Source of the DNA: Nitrospirota bacterium
Lineage (GTDB): Bacteria > Nitrospirota > JACRHL01
Assembly: GCA_029858285.1 (NCBI GenBank)
Contig: JAOUFN010000006.1
Coordinates: 62,001 to 126,000, forward strand
Reading direction: 5' to 3'
DNA: 64,000 nucleotides
Part shown: piece after piece, positions 7,736 to 63,089 of the stretch
Layout of the letters: every line of letters begins with the position of its first letter
Numbering within the stretch: position 1 is the stretch's first letter
Notes under the pieces: model-generated
What the model saw: only the letters and a program-made list of their open reading frames with translations
Told to the model about the DNA's origin: nothing
Databases searched by the model: none
Position numbers and translations under genes: made by a program

Positions 7736-7945
7736 ATGACCGACCACATCTACAAGCACATCGAGATTACCGGCACCTCCCCCGACAGCATCGAGGCGGC
7801 AGTGGGGGCGGCGGTGGCCCGCGCCCATCGGTCCGTGCGCCACATGCGCTGGTTCGAGGTGCTGGACACCCGCGGCCACATCCAGGACGGACGGGTGGCT
7901 CAGTGGCAGGTGACGATCAAAATCGGGTTCACGCTGGAGGAGTGA
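7736..7945 (+). CDS. Dodecin flavin-binding protein
   Basis: The protein has 69 residues, the usual dodecin length. The family signature is complete: [15 protein letters not shown] at the start, the helix [10 protein letters not shown], and the flavin-stacking Trp region [12 protein letters not shown] followed by [10 protein letters not shown]. Dodecins form hollow dodecamers that store flavins such as riboflavin, FMN or lumichrome in the cytoplasm. An AGGGA sequence lies upstream of the ATG. The gene stands alone. Confidence 0.95.
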
Positions 7946-8042
7946 GGAGGGGCCGCCTTCCGGCGGTATTCGCGACGGGCGGCGGCGTTTTCGAGCAGAT
8001 CACAAAATTGAATCGGGTACGTCCTGAAACGAGCCGCAGCGG

Positions 8043-8074
8043 GACACCGCAGGACACCGCAGTTTCCCGCAGTT
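8043..8074. repeat. Short GACACCGCAG direct repeat
   Basis: GACACCGCAG occurs twice in tandem (8043-8062), followed by related CCGCAGTTT-type sequence. It sits in the 200-base gap between the convergent dodecin and PilZ genes. Its role is unknown. Confidence 0.35.
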
Positions 8075-8145
8075 TGTGACCGACTCAGTGCAGGCGGCGC
8101 AGGTTCAAGGTCCCGGCGCGGACAATCTGGAAAAAGCCCCCGCTG

Positions 8146-8469
8146 CTACCATTTCAAATCCTGGGCCATGAAAAATTCCCACAGGATTTCCTGGGCTGCC
8201 TCGTCGATCTCCGAGAAGGAGATGCCGACGCCGTCGGACAACACATAGACCACCTGCCCTTTGGCGGACACAGTGGTGCCCTCGCGGGGTGCGGTCAGGG
8301 AGATGTCCACCACAACACTCTCCCCTTCCTCCGGGGGAGTGCTGCATACCGCATAACACCCTCCCAACCCAACCTGGCGGGTGTGCGCGCTGATAGTGCG
8401 TCCGCCCCCCTGGATGGTCACAGGCAGGGCCATGCTGTGGCGCTCGAAACGACGGGTAAATTCGGTCAC
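8146..8469 (-). CDS. PilZ domain protein
   Basis: This is a single-domain PilZ protein of 107 residues from GTG 8469. The c-di-GMP-binding RxxxR is seen as RRFERH near residue 5. The second motif is modified to QVGLGGCYA (usually D/NxSxxG). It ends in WEFFMAQDLKW. PilZ proteins bind cyclic di-GMP and act on motility, adhesion or polysaccharide output. The start is uncertain: GTG 8469 has GGGAG 11 bases upstream, while the frame stays open to 8553. It is the first of three small PilZ genes within 3 kb. Confidence 0.8.
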   Translation of the reverse strand: MTEFTRRFERHSMALPVTIQGGGRTISAHTRQVGLGGCYAVCSTPPEEGESVVVDISLTAPREGTTVSAKGQVVYVLSDGVGISFSEIDEAAQEILWEFFMAQDLKW

Positions 8470-8624
8470 GGTATGCTGCACTCCCGGATGTGGCGGTTGA
8501 ACTTGCGGCCAATCCCCCAGACTTCTCACTAGCCCCCCCCCCAACGACGGCACAGCCCCTCATCGCTGGAGCCGCCGGTAACAGCCTATCATCATCCGTC
8601 GGATTGTTCACGGGGGGGCCGAAT

Positions 8625-9095
8625 TTATCCCCGCCCGTGCTTTTGTCCGTGGCTTTTGCCACCCCCGCGCCGCCACCCGCGTCGCCATGTTTTCAGTTCG
8701 GAGACGAGGGCCGCGGCCTGTCCGGCAGTCAGGCGGCCTAACCCCTCCACGCCGGTATGGTGGTGGACAAAACGCTCCAGCGCCTCAAAGCTGCCGTCCG
8801 CCACCACACCGGAGGCAGCCAACTGCCCCCACATGGACCGCAACTGCCCGACATGGGCCGGGCGGGAGCACGGGGCGGGGGGAGGCGGAACCTCGGCCCG
8901 CAGCGCGCCACAACTGCGCAAAAAGGCCAGCAAGCGAGACAGGGCGCGGGCATCCAGGTGCTCCAGCCGGGCATCGTGTGCGCCACTCAGGTCGTGCAGC
9001 AGCGCCCCCCAGGTGGCGTCATCCAGGCCCAGTCGGCGGCGGGCCGCGCCGATGCGCAGGAGGTCGGCCGACCGCTGCTCACGCCAGTTGCCCAT
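8625..9095 (-). CDS. Mu GemA (gp16)-like regulatory protein, orphan
   Basis: The protein has 156 residues. The N-terminus has the GemA/DUF1018 pattern (IGAARRRLGLDDATWGALLHDLSG). The middle and end have the family's GQLRSMWGQLAASGVV and FVHHHTGVEGLGRLTAGQAAALVSELKTW blocks. A basic, Gly/His-rich tail (RRGWRRGGGKSHGQKHGRG) is probably a nucleic-acid-binding extension. Mu GemA modulates host gene expression and DNA supercoiling. No other phage gene is near, so this is either a domesticated gene or a lone remnant. It is intact and full length. Confidence 0.8.
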   Translation of the reverse strand: MGNWREQRSADLLRIGAARRRLGLDDATWGALLHDLSGAHDARLEHLDARALSRLLAFLRSCGALRAEVPPPPAPCSRPAHVGQLRSMWGQLAASGVVADGSFEALERFVHHHTGVEGLGRLTAGQAAALVSELKTWRRGWRRGGGKSHGQKHGRG

Positions 9096-9425
9096 ACCCG
9101 CATCCTCTCCGTGGGAAACCCTTTATCGCTGCGCCGATTGTAACGCTTTGCCGGGATGGCGGCACGTTCGGCCCGTGGTCTGGTGCAGTGGGGCGGTTTC
9201 TGTGGGTCATTTTTGATGAGTGTATGGGCAGTCGTTTTCGTCGGGAGAGTCTCCCCGGGCCTTTTCCGACCGAACTTGACCAGGGACCGGGGGCGTGAAA
9301 GGATGAACCCGGTAATCCCCTCGAACCGCTCGGGGAGCGGGGGGCCTTCACACCACAGGCAAAATGCCAGGTTGCCGGGCCGGTCCCGGGACAACCGGTT
9401 GAATAGATAGGAGCAGTGGGGGAGT
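9096..9425. other. Intergenic region with divergent promoters
   Basis: This 330-base gap lies between the divergent GemA-like and TPR genes. I see no ORF with coding character, no repeat and no clear sigma-70 promoter. It presumably holds both promoters. Confidence 0.3.
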
Positions 9426-10124
9426 ATGCGCAAGATCCAGTCCCGCCTTGCCACTGCGGAACGTTTGCTGGAGGCGGGCCGAACCGTCGAGGCCGAAGCA
9501 ATATACGAGCAGATACTGGGGCACCGTCCGCGTTGTACCGATGCCCTCTACCGCCTGGCGTTGCTGCGCCACGCGGCGGGCCGACTGGAGGATGCGGTGG
9601 CGTTGCTGCAACGGGCGGCCACCGAGAAGCCGGAGCAACTGAACTACCTGCACACACTGGCGCGCCTGCACACCGAGGCCGGGCGCCCGGCGGATGCGGT
9701 GACCTGCTACCGCCGCGCCGCCCATGTGCGACCGCAACAGGTGATCACCCACCGCATGCTGGGGGAAGCCCTGCGCCGGATGGGCCGATTCGACGAGGCG
9801 GTGGAAAGCTACCGCACCGCGCTGGTGATGACCCCCTACGACCCGGACCTGTTGATCGGCCTGGGCCTGTCCATGGCCGATCAGGGTCGGTTGGAGGAGG
9901 CCATGTCGATCCTCACCCAGGCAGTGGAGGCGGATACGGAATACGCTCTGCCCCATGCGGCCCTGGGCCGGGTGCTGGCCATGCAGGGCCGCAATGGTGA
10001 CGCGCTGGATCGGCTGGACCGGGCCGTGGACCTTGACCCCGGCGACGTGGCGCTGCGACGGGAGCGGGACGCGTTGCGAGCCCGGATGGAACACGTGGCC
10101 CACGGGAAATCCACAGGGGCGTAG
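9426..10124 (+). CDS. Tetratricopeptide-repeat protein
   Basis: The protein has 232 residues built almost wholly of about six TPR units (for example AEAIYEQILGHRPRCTDALYRLALL, ADAVTCYRRAAHVRPQQ, FDEAVESYRTAL). It has no signal peptide or membrane helix, so it is probably a cytoplasmic scaffold. The start at ATG 9426 follows GGAG and GGGGGAG sequences. It lies upstream of two PilZ genes in the same direction, 270 bases away, and could be functionally linked, but I cannot name a partner. Confidence 0.85.
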   Translation: MRKIQSRLATAERLLEAGRTVEAEAIYEQILGHRPRCTDALYRLALLRHAAGRLEDAVALLQRAATEKPEQLNYLHTLARLHTEAGRPADAVTCYRRAAHVRPQQVITHRMLGEALRRMGRFDEAVESYRTALVMTPYDPDLLIGLGLSMADQGRLEEAMSILTQAVEADTEYALPHAALGRVLAMQGRNGDALDRLDRAVDLDPGDVALRRERDALRARMEHVAHGKSTGA

Positions 10125-53064: not shown

Positions 53065-55974
53065 TCACTCCGGGGCGGCCCGGTCCTCCAAACGGATCAA
53101 GCGTGCCACCGTGTGCAGCAGTGTCTCCATGGTGTACGGCTTGGCGATGAACGGCATGTTGCTGACCCGCACCTCGTGCCAGCGGTCGTCTTTTTCCGGA
53201 TAACCGCTGCACAGCAGCACCGGCAGATTGGGGTGGCGGGCGCGAATTTCCTCCGCCAGGCGGATGCCGCTGCCGTCGGGGAGCACCACGTCGCTGAACA
53301 CCAGACAGAAGGCGTCTGCCCCGGCCGACAGAGCTCCGCGGGCCTCGCCACAGGAGGCGGCGGTGGTCACCCGGTATCCTTGACCACTCAGGGCCAGACT
53401 GGCGAATTGCAACAGCGAGGGTTCGTCCTCAATCACCAGCACCCGGCAATCACCCGAGGTCTCCTGCGGCGGGCGGGAGCTCCGGCTCGGCAGGGAGGTA
53501 TCCGCCTCGGCCCCGACCGGCAACGCGGGCAGCAACATCAGAAACGTGGCGCCCTCTCCGGGCTGGCTGTGCACCTCCACCCACCCCTCGTGCTGGCGTG
53601 CCACGCCGTACACCACCGAAAGTCCCAGCCCGGTGCCGCTGCCCACTCCCTTGGTGGTGAAAAACGGGTCGAACACCCGCGCCAGAGTCTGCGCGTCCAT
53701 GCCCACGCCGGAATCAGTGACTTCCAGAAACACAAAATCCCCGGCCCGTGCGTCCGGATGACGCCGCTCCGCCTCTTCGGGACCCAGTGTCAGATTGCCG
53801 ACCCGGATGCGCAGCGCCCCGCCCCGGGGCATGGCGTCACGGGCGTTGATGGCCAGATTCAGCAGCACCTGATCGATATTGACCGGGTCGCCCTGCACCA
53901 GTCGCATGGCCGGGTCGATATCGGCAGCCACCGCGACGTCCTCTCCCAGTGTGCGTTGCAACAGATCCAAAAGCCCCAACACGCGGTTGCCCAGATGGAT
54001 GGCGCTGGAGGTGAGGGACTGTTTTCGCGAAAACGCCAGCAGTTGCCGGGTCAACCCGGCGGCACGATCGGCAGAGTCGCACACCGCGCCCAGATCCTTG
54101 GCCAGGGGGCTGCCGGCGTCCACCTTGAGCAGGGCCAGTTGGGCAAAACCGCTGATGGAGGTGAGCAGGTTGTTGAAGTCGTGGGCGATCCCCCCGGCCA
54201 GCACCCCGACGGCCTCCAGCTTTCTGGTCTGCGCCAGTTCCAGCAGGGCGTTTTCCTTGTCCTGTTCGGCGGCTTTCAGTTCGGTGATATCCGAGGCCAC
54301 CCCGGCCACGCGGTAAACGTGGCCCATGCCGTCGCGCACCGGAAACACCCGCTCCCGCACCCAGCGCAGGGAGCCGTCCGGCCGCACCACCCGATAGATC
54401 TGGTCGTACTCGCCCCGGATGCGGCCAGCGAAGGCGGTGGCCACCCGGCTGCGATCTTCCGGATGCACCCCCTCCAGAAATGCCAGAGGGTCGCGGTACA
54501 GGGTATCGCAAGGGAGTCCCCAGATGGTCTCGTAGGCGGGGCTGACGTAGATGGTGCGACCGACCTGTTGCGCTTCGCCTTCAAGACCGTCCCCCAGGTC
54601 GTCGAGACGGAACATGTCCTGGATGTTCTCGGTCACCTGTCGCAGCAGCAGTTCTGAACGCCTGAGATCCTCCTCCATGCGGCGCATTTCGGAAACATCC
54701 TGAAGGGTGGACAGCACCCGTGGCGGGGTGGCATCACCCTCGCCGACGGGTTCGCCCTGTTCGCGGATATAGCGCACCTCGCCGTCCGGCCGCAGGATGC
54801 GGTAGTGGCAGATGTAAGCCTGTCGTGTCCTGGCCGCCTCGCGCACCGCCTTCAGGACCTGTTTGCGGTCTTCCGGATGGATCGCTGCCGCAAACGCCTC
54901 CGTAGTGGGCATGAATTCGCCGGGGGAGCGACCGAAGATGCGGAAGGTCTGCTCCGACCAGGTGATCGTGGAATGTTCCAGATTCCATTCGCAGTAGCCC
55001 GTATTGGCAATGCGCTGGGCACGGTTGAGCAGATATGCGCTCTTGCGCAGGTCGCGCTCGGTGCGATTGCGTCGGGTCACGTCTCGGGCCACGGCGATAA
55101 TCACCGGCGGGCCATCCTGGGGCAGGGAACGGTTCCAGCGCACCTCCACCGGAAAACGCGAGCCGTCGCCGCGCACAAATTCGGTGTCATGGCCCACTAC
55201 CCCAACTCCCCCGGCGGCCAGATCGCGCAGCAAGGTGCGCAGGTAGCCGCGCTGGTGTTCCGGCACCAGTTCCAGAGGACCCATGGCGGCAAGTTGTTCG
55301 GCGGGATACCCCATGGTGTCGGCCACCGAACGGTTGAAATCCACGAAGTGCAGGGTGGCGGGGTCGATCAGAAAAATGGCGTCGTCGCTGGTGTCGAGGG
55401 CGGTGCGGAAGCGGCGGCGGGCGGCGGCCTCGCCCTCCCGTTCCTCAATCAGAGTGCGGGTGTGGGCCTCGTTGACCCGGCACAGGTGGAGCATCTTCGC
55501 CAGATTGCTAAGTACTGGTGAAAATACCTCGGCGACCGGCAGTGCGCCGCCCGGAGGGGTGCTGGCGAACAGCAACAAAACCCCCTCACCGGGCACCGGC
55601 AGGCGCAGACAGACAGGGTAGGCGGGCGGTGGCGATGTGGAAGGGAACAGAGGCACCACCAGTTCCGCGACGTCCTCAAGCATTTGCGGCGGCCCCCGCA
55701 TCAGCCGGACGTCCAGGGTGATGCTGGCGCCGATTCGTCCGCGCAGGGCATGGCTGCCGATGGCCATTTCCAAAATGCCGGAGCATCCACTATTGGTGTG
55801 CCCTCCAGCATTGCCGGGTATACCCAGCTGCCGGGAAATGAACACGCCGCACGGAAACGATGTGTGGTAGAGCAGGCGCTGCACCACACGCGTGAGCAGG
55901 GGGCGCACTGTGGTCTCCCGGCTCATGGTGAGTGCCATGTCGTAGAGGATGGTGAGGTAGCTGGCCTGATTCAC
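53065..55974 (-). CDS. Hybrid sensor histidine kinase with GAF and three PAS domains
   Basis: The protein has 969 residues from GTG 55974, which overlaps the stop of the upstream FIST gene (GTGA). It has no membrane helix. A GAF-like domain (about 20-165) is followed by three PAS units to about 570. HisKA is GVLAGGIAHDFNNLLTSISGF near 590, then HATPase (NQxxLNLAINARDAM, DSGVGM, GTGLGLSVVYG). The receiver domain at about 830-955 has VLVIEDEPS, DVVLPDGSG and CSGYPEKD. It is a soluble kinase whose input is probably the co-translated FIST protein. A TTG at 55995 is an alternative start. Confidence 0.95.
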   Translation of the reverse strand: MNQASYLTILYDMALTMSRETTVRPLLTRVVQRLLYHTSFPCGVFISRQLGIPGNAGGHTNSGCSGILEMAIGSHALRGRIGASITLDVRLMRGPPQMLEDVAELVVPLFPSTSPPPAYPVCLRLPVPGEGVLLLFASTPPGGALPVAEVFSPVLSNLAKMLHLCRVNEAHTRTLIEEREGEAAARRRFRTALDTSDDAIFLIDPATLHFVDFNRSVADTMGYPAEQLAAMGPLELVPEHQRGYLRTLLRDLAAGGVGVVGHDTEFVRGDGSRFPVEVRWNRSLPQDGPPVIIAVARDVTRRNRTERDLRKSAYLLNRAQRIANTGYCEWNLEHSTITWSEQTFRIFGRSPGEFMPTTEAFAAAIHPEDRKQVLKAVREAARTRQAYICHYRILRPDGEVRYIREQGEPVGEGDATPPRVLSTLQDVSEMRRMEEDLRRSELLLRQVTENIQDMFRLDDLGDGLEGEAQQVGRTIYVSPAYETIWGLPCDTLYRDPLAFLEGVHPEDRSRVATAFAGRIRGEYDQIYRVVRPDGSLRWVRERVFPVRDGMGHVYRVAGVASDITELKAAEQDKENALLELAQTRKLEAVGVLAGGIAHDFNNLLTSISGFAQLALLKVDAGSPLAKDLGAVCDSADRAAGLTRQLLAFSRKQSLTSSAIHLGNRVLGLLDLLQRTLGEDVAVAADIDPAMRLVQGDPVNIDQVLLNLAINARDAMPRGGALRIRVGNLTLGPEEAERRHPDARAGDFVFLEVTDSGVGMDAQTLARVFDPFFTTKGVGSGTGLGLSVVYGVARQHEGWVEVHSQPGEGATFLMLLPALPVGAEADTSLPSRSSRPPQETSGDCRVLVIEDEPSLLQFASLALSGQGYRVTTAASCGEARGALSAGADAFCLVFSDVVLPDGSGIRLAEEIRARHPNLPVLLCSGYPEKDDRWHEVRVSNMPFIAKPYTMETLLHTVARLIRLEDRAAPE

Positions 55975-57110
55975 GGCCCACCCCAGGGGATGCAAACCAC
56001 GGTGGCATTGTGGAACAGGGGGTATCCGCCGCGCACCGCGCTGCCGATCTCTCCCAAGGACAGAGCCCCCGCCAGACGGGCCGGGCGCAGTCGCCGGGAA
56101 AGTTCCCCCAGTTCCCGCCGGGCGTCATCGCCCAGGTGCATGCGGCGTCCGGCACAGTAGAAGGTTTGTACCAGACTGACCGGGTTGCGGTCGCAGTGCT
56201 CCCCCAGTAGCCGCACTGTGTCCCCGGCGTCGGCGGAAGCGGCCTTGAGCAGGGTGAGCACGGCGTTTTCGGGAATCTCGCCCACACAGGTAACCGCGCC
56301 ACTCTCGTCGAGGGCCACCGGGATGCGCACCACCACCTCGCCATCCATGCGCAGGATACCGAGCGGATAGTGCACCGCGTGCTGGTAGAAATTGGCCGGA
56401 GTGACCCGGGCGCCGTACACATCCTGGATCAGCCGTGCGTAGACTTCAAAGGCCGGGCGCCAGTCGATGCTGGTAATCCGGTTGCCGCTGGTGGCGGTAG
56501 CGGTGATGACCTGGTCCGGCGAGTGGTAGCCGTGCGCCAGCGCGGCGCCACCATGGGCGGGCAGGAGCAGGGCCAGCAGGGCGTCACGGACGAAATGCTG
56601 GCGATCGAACAGGCAGTCGATGGGCTGAAAGGTCTCGCTGCCCGCATTCACCCCCATGTAACGCACCCGGTCTGCCAGGGACAGATACAGGCCGTCCAGA
56701 AGTGTGGCAATGTTGGGGACCAGACAGTCGAAAATCAGGAACAGGGCACTGGCGCCATCTGCCCCGGAGTGGGCTTCGGCCATTTCCGCCACACAACCAA
56801 GGGCGGACTCTGTGTCCTCGGCGTGGCTGAGGTCGGTGGCCAGAGTGACCCGAACATCCATCGGCAGGGGCAGCAGCAGCACCCCGCGCTTGTAAAACCG
56901 ATCATCTACGACCAGTTCAGGAAAAACCGCGCCCGCCAGTTCCAGATTTTGCCTCTCGCAGGCCCGTTGCAGTACGGGCACGATTTCACGGTCGGCCTCT
57001 GCCACCAGCGCCAGCACACCGCACCCGGTACCGGCCAGACGCAACAAAGCGTCACCGACCGCGTCCACGGTCGGTACTTCGATGAACTCGAATAGCAGTG
57101 GTGCAGTCAC
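55971..57110 (-). CDS. FIST domain sensor protein coupled to the hybrid kinase
   Basis: The protein has 379 residues from GTG 57110 (GGGGGAG upstream). FIST_N spans about 1-200 (ELAGAVFPELVVDDRFYKRGVLLLPLP) and FIST_C about 220-370 (NFYQHAVHYPLGILRMDGE then GGYPLFHNATVVCIPWG). Its stop overlaps the start of the kinase gene by 4 bases, so the two are made in equal amounts. It differs strongly from the FIST protein at 5540. The module is a two-protein sensing unit for an unknown small ligand. Confidence 0.93.
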   Translation of the reverse strand: MTAPLLFEFIEVPTVDAVGDALLRLAGTGCGVLALVAEADREIVPVLQRACERQNLELAGAVFPELVVDDRFYKRGVLLLPLPMDVRVTLATDLSHAEDTESALGCVAEMAEAHSGADGASALFLIFDCLVPNIATLLDGLYLSLADRVRYMGVNAGSETFQPIDCLFDRQHFVRDALLALLLPAHGGAALAHGYHSPDQVITATATSGNRITSIDWRPAFEVYARLIQDVYGARVTPANFYQHAVHYPLGILRMDGEVVVRIPVALDESGAVTCVGEIPENAVLTLLKAASADAGDTVRLLGEHCDRNPVSLVQTFYCAGRRMHLGDDARRELGELSRRLRPARLAGALSLGEIGSAVRGGYPLFHNATVVCIPWGGP

Positions 57111-57201: not shown

Positions 57202-58482
57202 TCAACCACCCCCGGTCCGGGTGTGTTTTGACGGCACTCGGGATGGGGCCGGGGCAGGCGCGGGGGTTTGGTCCCACATCCGCGCCAGAAGGGGGTTTCC
57301 GGGGCGGTAGTAGGGGTATCCGAACTGGCTGAAAAACACCTTTCGGCCGATGGCGTCCAGGTGGGGCCAGGTAGCGGCAATGCGGGATTGGTGGCGGGCG
57401 CGTTTTTTGGCGAAAAAAAGGCCTGCGAGACACAACTCCCGATCCGTTGGCTCCCCCCCCCTGCAGGTGTCCCTCACCCGCGACGGCAGCCTGGAGACCA
57501 TCCAGCGCCCCAGATAACCGGCTGTATTGAAGCAGGCCTGGCGCACCACACCGGATCGCTGGCTGCACTGGTCGGTCAGGTTGGCCATTTCGGTTTCGGT
57601 GCGGGGCACTGGCAACAGAAAACGCATGCACGCTCCCGGCAGTTGGCTTAGGTTTCCGCACAAGTTCATGCGCTCGTGAACTTTTGCGGCAAAGGTGGCG
57701 TTGGTGGTGGCCACCCCGCGCAACAGGATCGGTCGGGCATCCATGAAAACCCCGGTCTCGCAGTAGAAGCGCAGTTCCATGTCGTCACCATACAGTCTGC
57801 GACACCCTTCTACGGAAGCGCGAAAACCGGACCCGGCCACATGTTGCAATGCGTGTCCCACGGCGTGGGCGCAGTTGCCGGCGAAAAATCCCGGAATGGT
57901 GGCACCGCTGCCGCTGCAAAAGCGGCGCAACTCGGGTACCAGTGCCAGAGCCTGCTCCCCGGAACTGCCCGGAAGGCCCATTGAGCGGTGATGAAACGAA
58001 CCCGCCACCGCCCCATGCACGCAGCCGAAGGTGCAGGACGAATCACAAATTCCGATTGCCTGCTCCAGGTTGCCGGTGCGCCGGGCAAGCAATTCCCCCA
58101 GGGAGTGTAATTCCCCGTGGCAGGAGGGGTTACGCCGGTCGAAGTAGTCCATCAGGGCGGCGGCCCCCAGGTCGTCCAGAAATACCTCGAAAATCGGTGC
58201 GATATCGTCGTCCCGCTCCCACGCAGCTTCCCATTGCGTGGCGAACTCGGCCAGCCGTTGCGCCCGTCGCGTTTCCGCGAGGCGCCCTTGGGTCAGCAGG
58301 GGAATGTCGGTAAGTGGGGTGACCGGGGCGAAAATTGCCGTGACAGGGGGTGCCTCAAGCGGGTCCGGCACCTTGTCCACTGCGCGGGCGACGGGGTGCC
58401 CGCTGATCCAAAAAAACATGCCCAGGCACACCACAACCCACCGTCGGGCGAAAAACCGCCCCCGAAACCGCCCCGGTTGCAT
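57202..58482 (-). CDS. Exported Cys/His-rich protein with CHxxxH and CxHxxxH motifs
   Basis: The protein has 426 residues; the signal peptide is at about 1-34. Residues 121-126 read CHGELH. C146, C150, C154 and H156 lie in CDSSCTFGCVHG, and C204, H206 and H210 in CAHAVGH. A GVFMD block lies near 244, with further Cys at 189, 227 and 241. The helical pattern with paired Cys and His suggests metal binding or several disulfides in the periplasm. Related sequences with CxHGxGHA motifs occur in diverse bacteria and archaea, with no function I can recall. GAGG precedes ATG 58482. Confidence 0.75.
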   Translation of the reverse strand: MQPGRFRGRFFARRWVVVCLGMFFWISGHPVARAVDKVPDPLEAPPVTAIFAPVTPLTDIPLLTQGRLAETRRAQRLAEFATQWEAAWERDDDIAPIFEVFLDDLGAAALMDYFDRRNPSCHGELHSLGELLARRTGNLEQAIGICDSSCTFGCVHGAVAGSFHHRSMGLPGSSGEQALALVPELRRFCSGSGATIPGFFAGNCAHAVGHALQHVAGSGFRASVEGCRRLYGDDMELRFYCETGVFMDARPILLRGVATTNATFAAKVHERMNLCGNLSQLPGACMRFLLPVPRTETEMANLTDQCSQRSGVVRQACFNTAGYLGRWMVSRLPSRVRDTCRGGEPTDRELCLAGLFFAKKRARHQSRIAATWPHLDAIGRKVFFSQFGYPYYRPGNPLLARMWDQTPAPAPAPSRVPSKHTRTGGG

Positions 58483-58745: not shown

Positions 58746-59366
58746 TCAGCTGGGCACTCCGCAGGCGGGATCGCCTTCCTCTTCTCGCCGGGTGTGGCGC
58801 TCCAGCCACGCTTGCACCTGGCGGGGCTCCACGCCATAGTGGTTTTCGGCAAAACGGGCGGCCCCGGCGGCATCACCTTGCACCAGGAAAGGGGCCATGG
58901 ACTCCTTTCCCAGCAGGTTGCGGATGGCCTCAATCACATCCAGGCAGGCGTAGACATCCCGGGTGCGCCCCGGCACCAAGGGCAGCGCGGCATCGTTCCC
59001 CAGGTCCAGCAACACGCGGTGGAAGCGGGTGTCCCGGCGATCGCTGCGGGATTCCAGCACCACGTTCTGAATGGCGTCGAACCCCAACACCCCCCCCGCC
59101 GGGATGAGGCCCCGGCGCGACCAGCGCAGGCTGCGGGTGGCGGCGTCGAAATCGAAGCGACTCACCCGGCTGACCAGCAGCCCCCAGGCAGACACGCCAA
59201 AGGCGAGGCCAGCGTACCAGGTCATTTCCGAGTTCCACCCCAGACGGACGGCGGAGAAAAACAGCAGCGTCCCCATACCCACCGCCCCCACGGCAAACGC
59301 CGGAATCAGCCAGGCGGAGCCGTGGCGCAGGATTAAGCGTTCGGGACGATTCTCGACGATCTGCAT
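58746..59366 (-). CDS. Membrane protein with two helices, function unknown
   Basis: The protein has 206 residues. Two adjacent hydrophobic helices lie at about 18-40 (LIPAFAVGAVGMGTLLFFSA) and 48-68 (MTWYAGLAFGVSAWGLLVSR). A soluble domain follows (RFDFDAATRSLRWSRRGLIPAG, then RRDTRFHRVLLDLGNDAALPLVPG), PH-like in pattern. The C-terminus is charged. The family is not recognised. The gene stands alone on the minus strand before the GNAT-aminotransferase gene. Confidence 0.65.
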   Translation of the reverse strand: MQIVENRPERLILRHGSAWLIPAFAVGAVGMGTLLFFSAVRLGWNSEMTWYAGLAFGVSAWGLLVSRVSRFDFDAATRSLRWSRRGLIPAGGVLGFDAIQNVVLESRSDRRDTRFHRVLLDLGNDAALPLVPGRTRDVYACLDVIEAIRNLLGKESMAPFLVQGDAAGAARFAENHYGVEPRQVQAWLERHTRREEEGDPACGVPS

Positions 59367-59582
59367 GAGACTCCCTGTGTGGATGACGGATTTCTATCCC
59401 GCCCGCGTTCCGTGCGTGGTCGCTTGAACCCCCCATCATACCGGGTTTCGCCAACATGAATCAAAGCGGGTAGCGGCCCCCATGCCAGGCCTGTTTCCCG
59501 GTTCCAGGTTCGGTGTAAGCTACCGCCGCCCGGTCTCGGCTACCGGGGTGCGCCGAAAAATCATCCTGGGGAGGTGAGTCTG

Positions 59583-61241
59583 ATGCCGCTGGGTATGGAA
59601 TTTCGAATCGCCTGCAAGGCGTGGGAGTTCGAGCAGATTCACCAACTGAACCACCTTACCTTTGCGGGGGAACTGCCGCAACACACCCCCCGCCCCGACG
59701 GGCGACTGGTGGATCGTTTTCACCACGAAAACACCTACCTGATTGCTACCGACGGCGCCAGCGTGGCGGGGATGGTGGCGGTGCGCGGTCAGCGGCCGTT
59801 TTCCCTGGACCTAAAGCTTCCCGACTTGCTCACGTACCTGCCGGAACACCGCAATTCGTGCGAAATCCGCCTCCTGTCGGTGCGCCCGGAGCACCGGAAG
59901 GGGGCCGTGTTTTCCGGTCTGATGACTGCGTTGGCGGAATATGCCATCAGCCAGCACTATGATTTGGCCCTGATCTCCGGGACATTGCGCGAGGAACGCA
60001 TGTACCGGCAAATGGGCTTCGTCCCCTTCGGGCCGCAGGTGGGAACCGGTGGGGCGCATTTCCAGCCCATGTACATGACCTCGGACGGGTTCATGGACCT
60101 GTGCCGCAGGCGTCGGCTGTTCAGGGGGCAGGCCACCCGCCTGTCCGCCGGGCTGTCCGCTTCCTCAGTCCCTCGCGAAATCCTGAATTTGCTGCCGGGA
60201 CCGGTGTCCATGTCCCCTTTGGTGCGGCGGGAATTGTCGGCGGAACCGGTCAGTCATCGGGGTGGGGAATTTTTGAAGGTGGTCGCACAGGTGCGTGCCG
60301 CTCTGTGCGCGCTGACCGGCGCGGCGCGGGTGGCCCTGTTTTCCGGCGGGGGCACCCTGGCCAACGACGTGGTGGCGGCCCATCTGGCCCGGATGGAGGG
60401 GGAGGGCTTGGTGTGGGTGGGCGGCGAGTTCGGCCGCCGCCTGGCGGAGCAGGGGAGGGCCGCACGTCTGCGATTCCGCACCCTGGAGAACCGCCCCGGA
60501 ACGCCTCTGGAAGCGTCACGCCTGAGGCGCGAACTGGCCATGCACCCGGAAGTACGATGGGTATGGACGGTGCATTGCGAAACCGAAACCGGTGTGCTGA
60601 ACAACCTGTCCGCCCTGTCCGATGTCTGCCGCGAGGCCGGGGTAAGGCTGGCGGTGGATGGTGTCAGTTCCCTGGGCACCGTGCCCCTTTGCCTTTCTGG
60701 CGTGTGCCTTGCCAGTGCATCAAGTGGCAAGGGGCTGGCTGCGGCCGCCGGGCTGGCGCTGGTGTTTCACGACCATCCGGTGGCCCCGGCGGAGGGCATC
60801 CCCCACTGCATTGACCTGGGGCGTCACACGGCGGACGGCGGCGTGCCACACACCATCGCGTCCGGTCCCGTGCTGGCCCTGAGGGCAGCGCTTTTGGAGA
60901 CCGACTGGCCCACGCGATTTACCGCCATTGCCGAGGCTTCCCGCCATTTGCGCTGGGTGTTACTCGAGTCCGGTTACCCTGTCCTGGCGCCTGAGCAGTG
61001 CGCGTCTCCGGCAGTGCTTTCTGTGGATCTTCCCGCACGGCTTTCCTCGCGCCATGTGGGGGACCGACTGGAGCGACTGGGAGTGCGCGTCAGCTACCAG
61101 AGCGCCTACCTGCTGGCTGCAAACCGCATCCAGTTGTGCCTGATGGGCCACCGGATGCCGCAGCTGGAAATGTTGAACGACGCCCTGCGGAGCGCTTTTG
61201 GCGAGCCCGCGCTGAAACAGCGACGGGCCACCCCCGCCTGA
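59583..61241 (+). CDS. GNAT-aminotransferase fusion protein
   Basis: The protein has 552 residues from ATG 59583, with GGGGAGGT 7 bases upstream. Residues about 1-175 are a GNAT-type acyltransferase (CEIRLLSVRPEHRKGAVFSGLM near 97). Residues about 195-540 are a class V PLP aminotransferase of the alanine-glyoxylate/aminoethylphosphonate type: LPGPVSMSPLVRREL, HRGGEF, FSGGGTLAND, VDGVSSLG and the PLP lysine in SSGKG (Lys383). The fusion could acylate and transaminate one substrate in sequence. It is followed on the same strand by the transglutaminase/7TM and ATP-grasp genes. The substrate is unknown. Confidence 0.87.
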   Translation: MPLGMEFRIACKAWEFEQIHQLNHLTFAGELPQHTPRPDGRLVDRFHHENTYLIATDGASVAGMVAVRGQRPFSLDLKLPDLLTYLPEHRNSCEIRLLSVRPEHRKGAVFSGLMTALAEYAISQHYDLALISGTLREERMYRQMGFVPFGPQVGTGGAHFQPMYMTSDGFMDLCRRRRLFRGQATRLSAGLSASSVPREILNLLPGPVSMSPLVRRELSAEPVSHRGGEFLKVVAQVRAALCALTGAARVALFSGGGTLANDVVAAHLARMEGEGLVWVGGEFGRRLAEQGRAARLRFRTLENRPGTPLEASRLRRELAMHPEVRWVWTVHCETETGVLNNLSALSDVCREAGVRLAVDGVSSLGTVPLCLSGVCLASASSGKGLAAAAGLALVFHDHPVAPAEGIPHCIDLGRHTADGGVPHTIASGPVLALRAALLETDWPTRFTAIAEASRHLRWVLLESGYPVLAPEQCASPAVLSVDLPARLSSRHVGDRLERLGVRVSYQSAYLLAANRIQLCLMGHRMPQLEMLNDALRSAFGEPALKQRRATPA

Positions 61242-61472
61242 ACCGGATATCCGCGTCGCAGGGCGTGGGTCCGGGCGCGGAGGCGAGCCCGACACCGGTG
61301 GTCCGGGCGGAACAAACCCGCCACCCGGAACGTCCAACTTTTTGTGGGGAAACCCTTCTTTTACCTGCAGGGTGGATTCCCGCACCACGAAACGGGTATC
61401 GTCGCTCGGCCTTTGCACACGGAAACAGTGCCGCGTTTCTTTCAACATCACCGGGACCAGAACCACCCCCCC

Positions 61473-63089
61473 ATGCTTCGTTCCTTGTTCGGCATGTCTC
61501 TCAGGCGCATGGTGTTCCTTCTGCTGGTGGTGGTGTGCGCCGTTCTGCCCATGGGGCTGATGGCCTACAAACTGTACGTGCTTGACTACCCCCTTTCCGG
61601 GCTGATTCCGGCCACCAGCTACATGGTGGACGTGAACATGGATGTCACCGGACACGGCGACAACATTCAGGTCAAAACTTACCTGCCCCGTACCGATGCC
61701 AGGCAGCTCATTACCGGCGAGGAAAACGCCTCCGGCGCATTCGTGCTGGAGTTGCAGGCGGATGCCCTCAACCGCCAGGCGGTGTGGAACGCGGAGGCGG
61801 TGGAAGGGACACACGCCATCCGCTACAGCTACACCGTGCAGGCCGAAAGTGTGCGCTACGACATTCCCTCCGGGCTACCGATCTCCGCCACCCAGCCTGC
61901 GGAACTCCAGGGCTACCTGGTTGCTGAAGAAGGCATCCAGGTGGGTGACCCTCTCATCACCGAAGAGTTGAAGCGCGTCGTCCCCGAGGAGCGCCCGGAT
62001 GCACTTTCGGCCCTCACCCGCATCCACCGCCACCTGCAGGACGACTTCGCCAACCGCAATTTTTCCGGCTACACCGACGCATTGACTGCCCTCAAGCTGG
62101 GGGAAGCCAGTTGTAACGGAAAAAGCCGCCTGTTCGCCGCCATGGCCCGAGGTCTGGGGATGCCCGCGCGCCTGGTGGGGGGCATCATTCTGGAGCCCGG
62201 CAGCAAGCGCACCTCACATCAGTGGGTAGAAATCTACCTGGGCGGTCACTGGGTGCCGTTCGATACCATCAACGACCATTTTGCCTCCATCCCCGGCAAC
62301 TACCTGGCCCTTTACTACGGCGACGAGGCCCTGTTCCGGCACACCGGAAACGTCAACTTCCACTATTCCTTCAAGACCAAAAAACGACTGGTGCCGCGCC
62401 GCGAGGTACAGGAATCCCTGGGGGGCTCGTCGTGGAATATCCTCAACCTGTATTCCGTGTTTGAGCGCATCGGCATTCCCCAGAATCTCCTCAAGATTGT
62501 GCTGATGATTCCTTTCGGCGCACTGGTGGTGGTGATCTTCCGCAACGTGGTGGGACTGGAAACCTTTGGCACTTTTCTGCCCGCGCTGATCGCCGCAGCA
62601 GCGCGGGACACCGGTATCTGGTGGGGCCTGGCGGGGTTTTTGACGATTTTGTTGGTGGCTGCCACGGTGCGTAAGGCGCTGGACTGGGTGCACCTGCTGC
62701 ACTCCCCCAAAATGGCCATCATGCTCACGGTGGTGGTCATCACCATGCTCTCCCTGTCCGTGGCCGCCGTAAACGCAGGGCTGTTTGATCTGGCTCACGT
62801 CAGCCTGTTTCCCATCGCCATCCTGGCCATCACCGCAGAGCGGATCGCGCTGATTGACGCCGAGCAGGGTTTTTTGCAGGTGGCGCGCATCACCGTGGCG
62901 ACCATGGTGGTGATCGTGGCCTGTTACTGGGTGATGGACTCGCTGTTTTTGCAAAGCATGGTGCTGGCGTTCCCCGAGGTGCTGCTGATAATCATTGCGC
63001 TCAACCTGTGGCTGGGCAAATGGATCGGCATGCGCGTGAGTGAATTTGTCCGCTTCCGGCGCCTGATTTTCACGGGAAAAGAATCGTGA
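61473..63089 (+). CDS. Transglutaminase-like membrane protein with C-terminal seven-helix domain
   Basis: The protein has 538 residues from ATG 61473 (no strong ribosome-binding site; ATG 61494 possible). One N-terminal helix anchors a periplasmic domain containing a transglutaminase-like core. Its Cys (GEASCNGKS, C214), His (TSHQWVEIY, H249) and Asp (WVPFDTIN, D264) form a complete triad. Seven hydrophobic helices follow from about 350 to 520. Relatives are often called inactive transglutaminase fused to seven helices and are paired with an ATP-grasp ligase. That gene follows here with a 4-base GTGA overlap. The system is predicted to make or modify peptides at the membrane. Confidence 0.9.
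   Translation: MLRSLFGMSLRRMVFLLLVVVCAVLPMGLMAYKLYVLDYPLSGLIPATSYMVDVNMDVTGHGDNIQVKTYLPRTDARQLITGEENASGAFVLELQADALNRQAVWNAEAVEGTHAIRYSYTVQAESVRYDIPSGLPISATQPAELQGYLVAEEGIQVGDPLITEELKRVVPEERPDALSALTRIHRHLQDDFANRNFSGYTDALTALKLGEASCNGKSRLFAAMARGLGMPARLVGGIILEPGSKRTSHQWVEIYLGGHWVPFDTINDHFASIPGNYLALYYGDEALFRHTGNVNFHYSFKTKKRLVPRREVQESLGGSSWNILNLYSVFERIGIPQNLLKIVLMIPFGALVVVIFRNVVGLETFGTFLPALIAAAARDTGIWWGLAGFLTILLVAATVRKALDWVHLLHSPKMAIMLTVVVITMLSLSVAAVNAGLFDLAHVSLFPIAILAITAERIALIDAEQGFLQVARITVATMVVIVACYWVMDSLFLQSMVLAFPEVLLIIIALNLWLGKWIGMRVSEFVRFRRLIFTGKES

Follow-up and report, generated by a model that had tools for sequence, protein, structure and literature searches.

The window, by which we mean the whole stretch of 64,000 nucleotides, contains a forward-strand gene at 59583-61241 whose translation yields 552 amino acids with zero internal stops. 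The original prediction held that this single frame joins an intact-looking GNAT domain to a PLP aminotransferase with its lysine in the motif SSGKG, and the analysis agrees on each point and finds both domains intact. Pfam matched GNAT families at residues 20-166 of the window protein (FeeM at 8e-8, Acetyltransf_5 and Acetyltransf_1) and Aminotran_5 from residue 223 (2e-8), and the AlphaFold model displayed two confident domains (mean pLDDT 87) with a disordered stretch at residues 183-197 connecting them. The lysine is K383, invariant in 83/83 proteins. A stop or frameshift between the domains was looked for; none is present in the window frame, and the two-domain order recurs in relatives. 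Judged by its sequence, the gene appears to have a good ribosome-binding site. The features of the locus are listed below.

59568..59577, + strand: Shine-Dalgarno-like sequence GGGGAGGTGA, 5 nt 5' of the ATG at 59583; read directly
59583..61241, + strand: fusion gene, GNAT N-acyltransferase plus class V PLP enzyme, 552 aa; open frame, 83 distinct full-length proteins, model pLDDT 87
59583..60128, + strand: GNAT half, residues 1-182, FeeM/LuxI-like, with E94, R96 and R105 invariant; from the FeeM match in 21/21 members, Foldseek and conservation
60129..60173, + strand: disordered linker, residues 183-197; pLDDT <50
60177..61199, + strand: PLP half, residues 199-539, fold type I, AEP transaminase/AGT-like; from Foldseek and hmmsearch
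60657..60659, + strand: codon of D359, the pyridine-N Asp of the class V motif; invariant, 83/83
60729..60731, + strand: codon of K383, the PLP lysine in SSGKG; invariant, 83/83
61131..61133, + strand: codon of Q517, the Gln aligned with the substrate-binding Arg of PhnW/AGT; HMM alignments to 7e7g, 1vjo, 2dr1 and 1m32, Gln in 83/83
61344-63089, + strand: 7TM_transglut gene, RloB-like, following the fusion; likelier start near 61473
63086 (to 64000), + strand: ATP-grasp/TIGR02291 gene, RloC-like, second gene after the fusion and overlapping the transglutaminase gene

A search of the window for structured RNA found none. A defence role for the fusion was rejected, as PADLOC gave only weak class V matches.

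Database searches for the same two-domain order recovered full-length relatives with 34-47% identity from several groups: Bacillota, Verrucomicrobiota, the Gammaproteobacteria and, in the phylum of the window, one additional genome. The order was also found in 28 loci of a species-level genome collection, where one copy ends at a contig end and one is frameshifted. Since all but these two are intact and full length, we conclude that the fusion is neither a chance event nor an assembly artefact. The residue conservation counts for the fusion rest on 83 distinct full-length fusion proteins. The fusion is rare in the window's phylum (2/396 genomes), in the order of an Opitutaceae MAG (7/273 genomes) and in the class of a gammaproteobacterial carrier (3/369 genomes). 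It is common in the family of Cytobacillus firmus (Bacillaceae-type), with 83/194 genomes, a few of them partial. Near-full-length matches were present in 48/400 genomes of a Bacilli sample, in which the 238 matches at 1e-30 were mostly ordinary class V enzymes and not fusions. The rows named as Bacillota, Verrucomicrobiota and Pseudomonadota in the fusion tree each require just one change, and the branch of the window fusion is long and close to the gammaproteobacterial rows, a placement that is unsure. The NCBI product name is only 'aminotransferase class V-fold PLP-dependent enzyme'. Apparently split or frameshifted copies, with the halves in separate frames, were seen at L028 ~7914-9484, G731:C1:1299988-1301573 and G1472:C1:126087-127519. 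Frames of 615-629 aa with a related C-terminal class V domain and another N-terminal part occur in G1278, G1337, G1347, G1380, G1424, G1358, G1402, G1391 and G1369, and are possibly PntC-AEPT fusions.

When genomes and neighbours were counted at the 83 distinct loci, the conserved neighbour turned out to be a PlsY-family gene and not the peptide-ligation genes of the original prediction. This gene, here called PlsY2, is the immediate upstream neighbour, in the same orientation, at 68/83 loci from several phyla, and LtaS lies directly downstream of the fusion in 37/83. An adjacent PlsY2 is absent from 15/83 loci, including the window. The window genome has a single PlsY, located in the canonical clade; the other carrier in its phylum (G101) has a PlsY neighbour, and two further Bacillaceae genomes without adjacent PlsY2 have an extra PlsY elsewhere in the genome. 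The fusion operon as a replacement for PlsC was rejected, as PlsC-family genes were present in 19/19 genomes tested, including that of the window.

Several loci carry additional genes. Genes for DUF3999 and DUF2339 membrane proteins adjoin the PlsY2-fusion pair in G101 (L068 10806-15154), and a cyclopropane-fatty-acid-synthase-like gene converges on the fusion at both gammaproteobacterial loci (L004 9664-11073, L024 9660-11042). The 690-kb plasmid of Cytobacillus spongiae (L146, NZ_CP089998.1 203023-207073) carries the whole PlsY2-fusion-LtaS operon with generic annotation only.

The GNAT half was analyzed by family and by fold. FeeM matched 21/21 fusion members at E<=0.001 (best 1.7e-15) and Acetyltransf_5 (PF13444) matched 20/21 at the same threshold; the window GNAT half scored 35.6 bits for FeeM (cut-off 27) and 27.7 bits for Acetyltransf_5 (cut-off 22.4). 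PF13444 includes OlsB, GlsB and related N-acyl amide and N-acyl-amino-acid synthases. The domain model (pLDDT 91) had BjaI (5w8e, TMq 0.79) as its top Foldseek match, with FeeM (2g0b), LasI and TofI among the top matches; ordinary GNATs matched the model too. By sequence and model, the GNAT half belongs to the FeeM/LuxI-like N-acyltransferases, and its similarity in family (FeeM/PF13444) and fold (BjaI, FeeM, LasI) favours a long-chain acyl donor over acetyl-CoA. It shares the GNAT fold and family match with FeeM and the LuxI-type AHL synthases (BjaI, LasI; PF21926/PF13444), whereas here the domain sits in one chain with a PLP enzyme, is associated with PlsY2 and has a predicted donor.

The closest solved structures to the PLP half by Foldseek were 7e7g, 1vjo and 1m32 (hmmsearch to 7e7g, 1.4e-41), and its best solved relatives are 2-aminoethylphosphonate (AEP) transaminase and alanine-glyoxylate aminotransferase (AGT). 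The PLP site is intact, with D359 and K383 in 83/83 and the motifs GxGT and HxET invariant or nearly so in the 83 proteins. PhnW and AGT bind the acidic group of the substrate by Arg340 and Arg360, respectively. The aligned residue of the fusion, Q517, is Gln in 83/83, suggesting that the substrate is not gripped like an amino acid or AEP. The loss of this Arg also removes the usual site for the carboxylate of the amino donor, which makes transamination by the PLP half a prediction. The fusion scored 131.1 bits with the AepZ/PhnW model of NCBIfam, for which the equivalog cut-off is 360.8, and other members scored 93-152. Fold and complete PLP site are common to the PLP half, PhnW/AepZ and AGT, whereas the invariant Gln, the scores below cut-off and the lack of a phosphonate context set the fusion apart. 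Its sequence indicates a working-looking PLP site with an altered substrate pocket in an enzyme that is not a PhnW.

The PlsY2 proteins showed a comparable mixture of retained and altered features. Like PlsY, the acyl-phosphate:glycerol-3-phosphate acyltransferase, they belong to PF02660 (130-142 bits, cut-off 24.1), but with 115-127 bits they fall below the TIGR00023 equivalog cut-off of 137.2, and a branch with 96/97 support splits the fusion-adjacent PlsY2 from the canonical PlsY copies that their genomes also encode. Rows L050 and L055-L061 of this tree, although labelled 'far', represent genes identical to adjacent PlsY2 copies. In aaPlsY, the phosphate of glycerol-3-phosphate (G3P) is held by Ser35, Arg45, Lys104 and Asn180 and the 2-hydroxyl by Ser142 and His177 (PMC5700162). 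We mapped these residues by alignment to 5xj5, in which the chain number is the paper number + 1. PlsY2 keeps Ser35 (67/68), Arg45 (68/68), Lys104 (63/68) and His177 (68/68), whereas Asn180 is found in only 13/68 as compared to 41/41 canonical PlsY, and Gly142 in 55/68 as compared to 1/41. The G3P pocket, consisting of Ser35, Arg45, Lys104, Ser(Ala)142, His177 and Asn180, is therefore incomplete. Loss of Ser142 alone was rejected as a diagnostic of PlsY2, since the canonical PlsY of the phylum to which the window belongs mostly carry Ala142 (18/19 PlsY), and so the argument rests on Gly142 together with the loss of Asn180. The simplest reading of these sequences is that the acceptor of PlsY2 would be a phosphorylated three-carbon compound changed at C2.

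The domain content, its conservation, the co-location with PlsY2 and LtaS and the remodelled substrate residues in both enzymes were observed directly, and the context suggests a membrane lipid, so far undescribed, that has an amide in place of the ester of ordinary lipids. The PLP half probably makes an amine, which the fatty-acyl transferase half would then cap. At roughly even confidence, we propose that the fusion is a bifunctional aminolipid-precursor synthase, in which the PLP half aminates and the GNAT half N-acylates, followed by O-acylation by PlsY2. We infer the substrate, the acyl donor, the chain length and the order of the steps as follows. The PLP half would transaminate a three-carbon ketone, most likely dihydroxyacetone phosphate (DHAP), to 2-amino-1,3-propanediol (serinol) phosphate. 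Slow transamination of DHAP to serinol phosphate is documented (PMC9283133), and N-palmitoyl serinol is made by N-acyl synthases of Gemella (PMC11271093). We propose serinol phosphate because three features of one operon converge on it: an acyltransferase suited to a G3P analogue modified at C2, a PLP enzyme that lacks the usual grip on a carboxylate, and a fatty N-acyltransferase. The FeeM-type GNAT half would attach a long acyl chain, donated by acyl-ACP or acyl-CoA, to the amine, producing N-acyl-serinol phosphate, and by fusion of the two activities the amine might be handed straight to the acyltransferase (channelling). In most genomes, PlsY2 would use acyl-phosphate to place a second chain on the free hydroxyl, yielding an amide analogue of phosphatidic acid, and in many Bacillota the product would feed lipoteichoic-acid-type chemistry via the adjacent LtaS. 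Alternatively, PlsY2 could act first to give acyl-DHAP, followed by amination and N-acylation. The absence of PlsY2 from the window's species suggests that the pathway is incomplete or different there; synthesis may end with the N-acyl compound or be completed by housekeeping acyltransferases. For this reason, and because its neighbours are unique to it, the window locus may yield another product than the Bacillota operons do.

A broader hypothesis, which we put forward tentatively, is that PlsY2, the fusion and LtaS together make and use a glycerophospholipid-like class of membrane lipid, with serinol phosphate in place of glycerol phosphate and with one amide-bound and one ester-bound chain. 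Such an amide analogue of phosphatidic acid would have been overlooked so far in the common Bacillaceae, in Exiguobacterium and Opitutales and in some Gammaproteobacteria, and would supply teichoic-acid synthesis in many Bacillota. If this is true, the operon of Cytobacillus firmus and other cultivable bacteria serves to make a phospholipid analogue. Its sn-2-equivalent chain, being amide-bound, should resist ester-cleaving lipases and alkali. The fusion-PlsY2 operon would also offer a direct test for the persistence of second PlsY copies. N-acyl serinols are ligands of host receptors, and the pathway would connect these compounds to membrane lipid synthesis.

A lipid resembling the ornithine and glycine lipids is an unlikely alternative. 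Here, the PLP half would make an amino compound, the GNAT half would add a 3-hydroxyacyl chain and PlsY2 would esterify the 3-hydroxyl, resulting in an N-acyl-amino-acid or amino-alcohol lipid. The order of N- and then O-acylation would be shared with the OlsB/OlsA and GlsB/GlsA pathways, and so would the N-acyltransferase family, as OlsB/GlsB and some N-acyl amide synthases are members of PF13444, which 20/21 fusion members match; an O-acyltransferase partner is also present. However, the second step of the known pathways uses PlsC-like O-acyltransferases, whereas the conserved partner of the fusion is of the PlsY family and not PlsC-like (LPLAT), and the amine would be made in cis by the PLP domain. 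In addition, PlsY2 retains the phosphate-holding Ser35, Arg45 and Lys104, and the PLP half has lost its carboxylate-binding Arg.

Rather improbable is that the pathway ends with an N-acyl serinol or similar N-acyl amide, serving as a signal or surfactant, with a separate role for PlsY2. This end-product reading is consistent with the Gemella synthases that make N-palmitoyl serinol (PMC11271093) and with the window and 14 other loci without adjacent PlsY2. It is at odds with the PlsY2 gene adjoining the fusion in 68/83 loci and with the split of PlsY2 from canonical PlsY. 

The human-microbiome Gemella enzyme hm-NAS (Cohen et al. 2017) is reportedly a two-domain aminotransferase/N-acyl-synthase protein, and the Gemella N-acyl-serinol synthases may be relatives of the fusion. 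If the two-domain description holds, this kind of enzyme is already known. New would then be how widely it occurs, the altered pocket of the PLP half and the coupling with PlsY2 and LtaS, which is not described for hm-NAS in the literature found. Should the Gemella likeness hold, this coupling would turn a signal-molecule enzyme into a membrane-lipid pathway.

The original prediction also suggested that the GNAT domain acylates the product of the PLP domain, an amino acid or phosphonate. Two intact catalytic domains in one chain and the idea of an acylated amine are supported, but a phosphonate substrate is not. That the fusion serves AEP metabolism, as an AEP transaminase joined to an AEP N-acyltransferase, is very unlikely: the closest solved structures are AEP transaminases and an AEPT fusion is known (PntC-AEPT, 6pd1), but phosphonate metabolism was rejected on the AepZ/PhnW score (131 vs 361 bits), the replacement of the substrate Arg by Gln in 83/83 and the search for PEP mutase (PF13714), which gave nothing above cut-off in the window genome and zero matches in two fusion-bearing genomes (G073, G076). 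The PF13714 matches in other fusion carriers do not tell PEP mutase from related lyases.

The position of the fusion before two predicted peptide-ligation genes holds in the window, but the functional link does not. These genes resemble RloB and RloC, which are encoded in the Rlo operon of Pseudomonas aeruginosa (PMC12239564), but they are not conserved with the fusion: neither was present near any of the other fusion loci examined, where PlsY2 is the conserved neighbour, and no RloA protease was recognised among the annotated neighbouring genes. It is thus hardly credible that the fusion serves this transglutaminase/ATP-grasp system, for instance as the source of an amino acid or as the enzyme that caps one, as the same-strand adjacency might suggest; a gap of approximately 230 nt separates the fusion from the likely start of the RloB-like gene, and we rejected the inference of function from these neighbours.

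The RloB-like gene at 61344-63089 matched Transglut_core with 69.5 bits and reads GEASCNGKS...SHQWVEI...PFDTIND, and its Cys-His-Asp triad seems to be preserved, even though members of this family are described as inactive. A gene for a TPR protein follows the RloC-like ATP-grasp gene (L064 8014-9891). Upstream of the fusion, two genes on the reverse strand (57202-58482 and 58746-59366) gave no Pfam or NCBIfam match. Also on the reverse strand (window 53065-57110), a FIST-domain protein is encoded beside a PAS-rich hybrid sensor kinase, an arrangement that resembles the NO-sensing NosP/kinase pairs.
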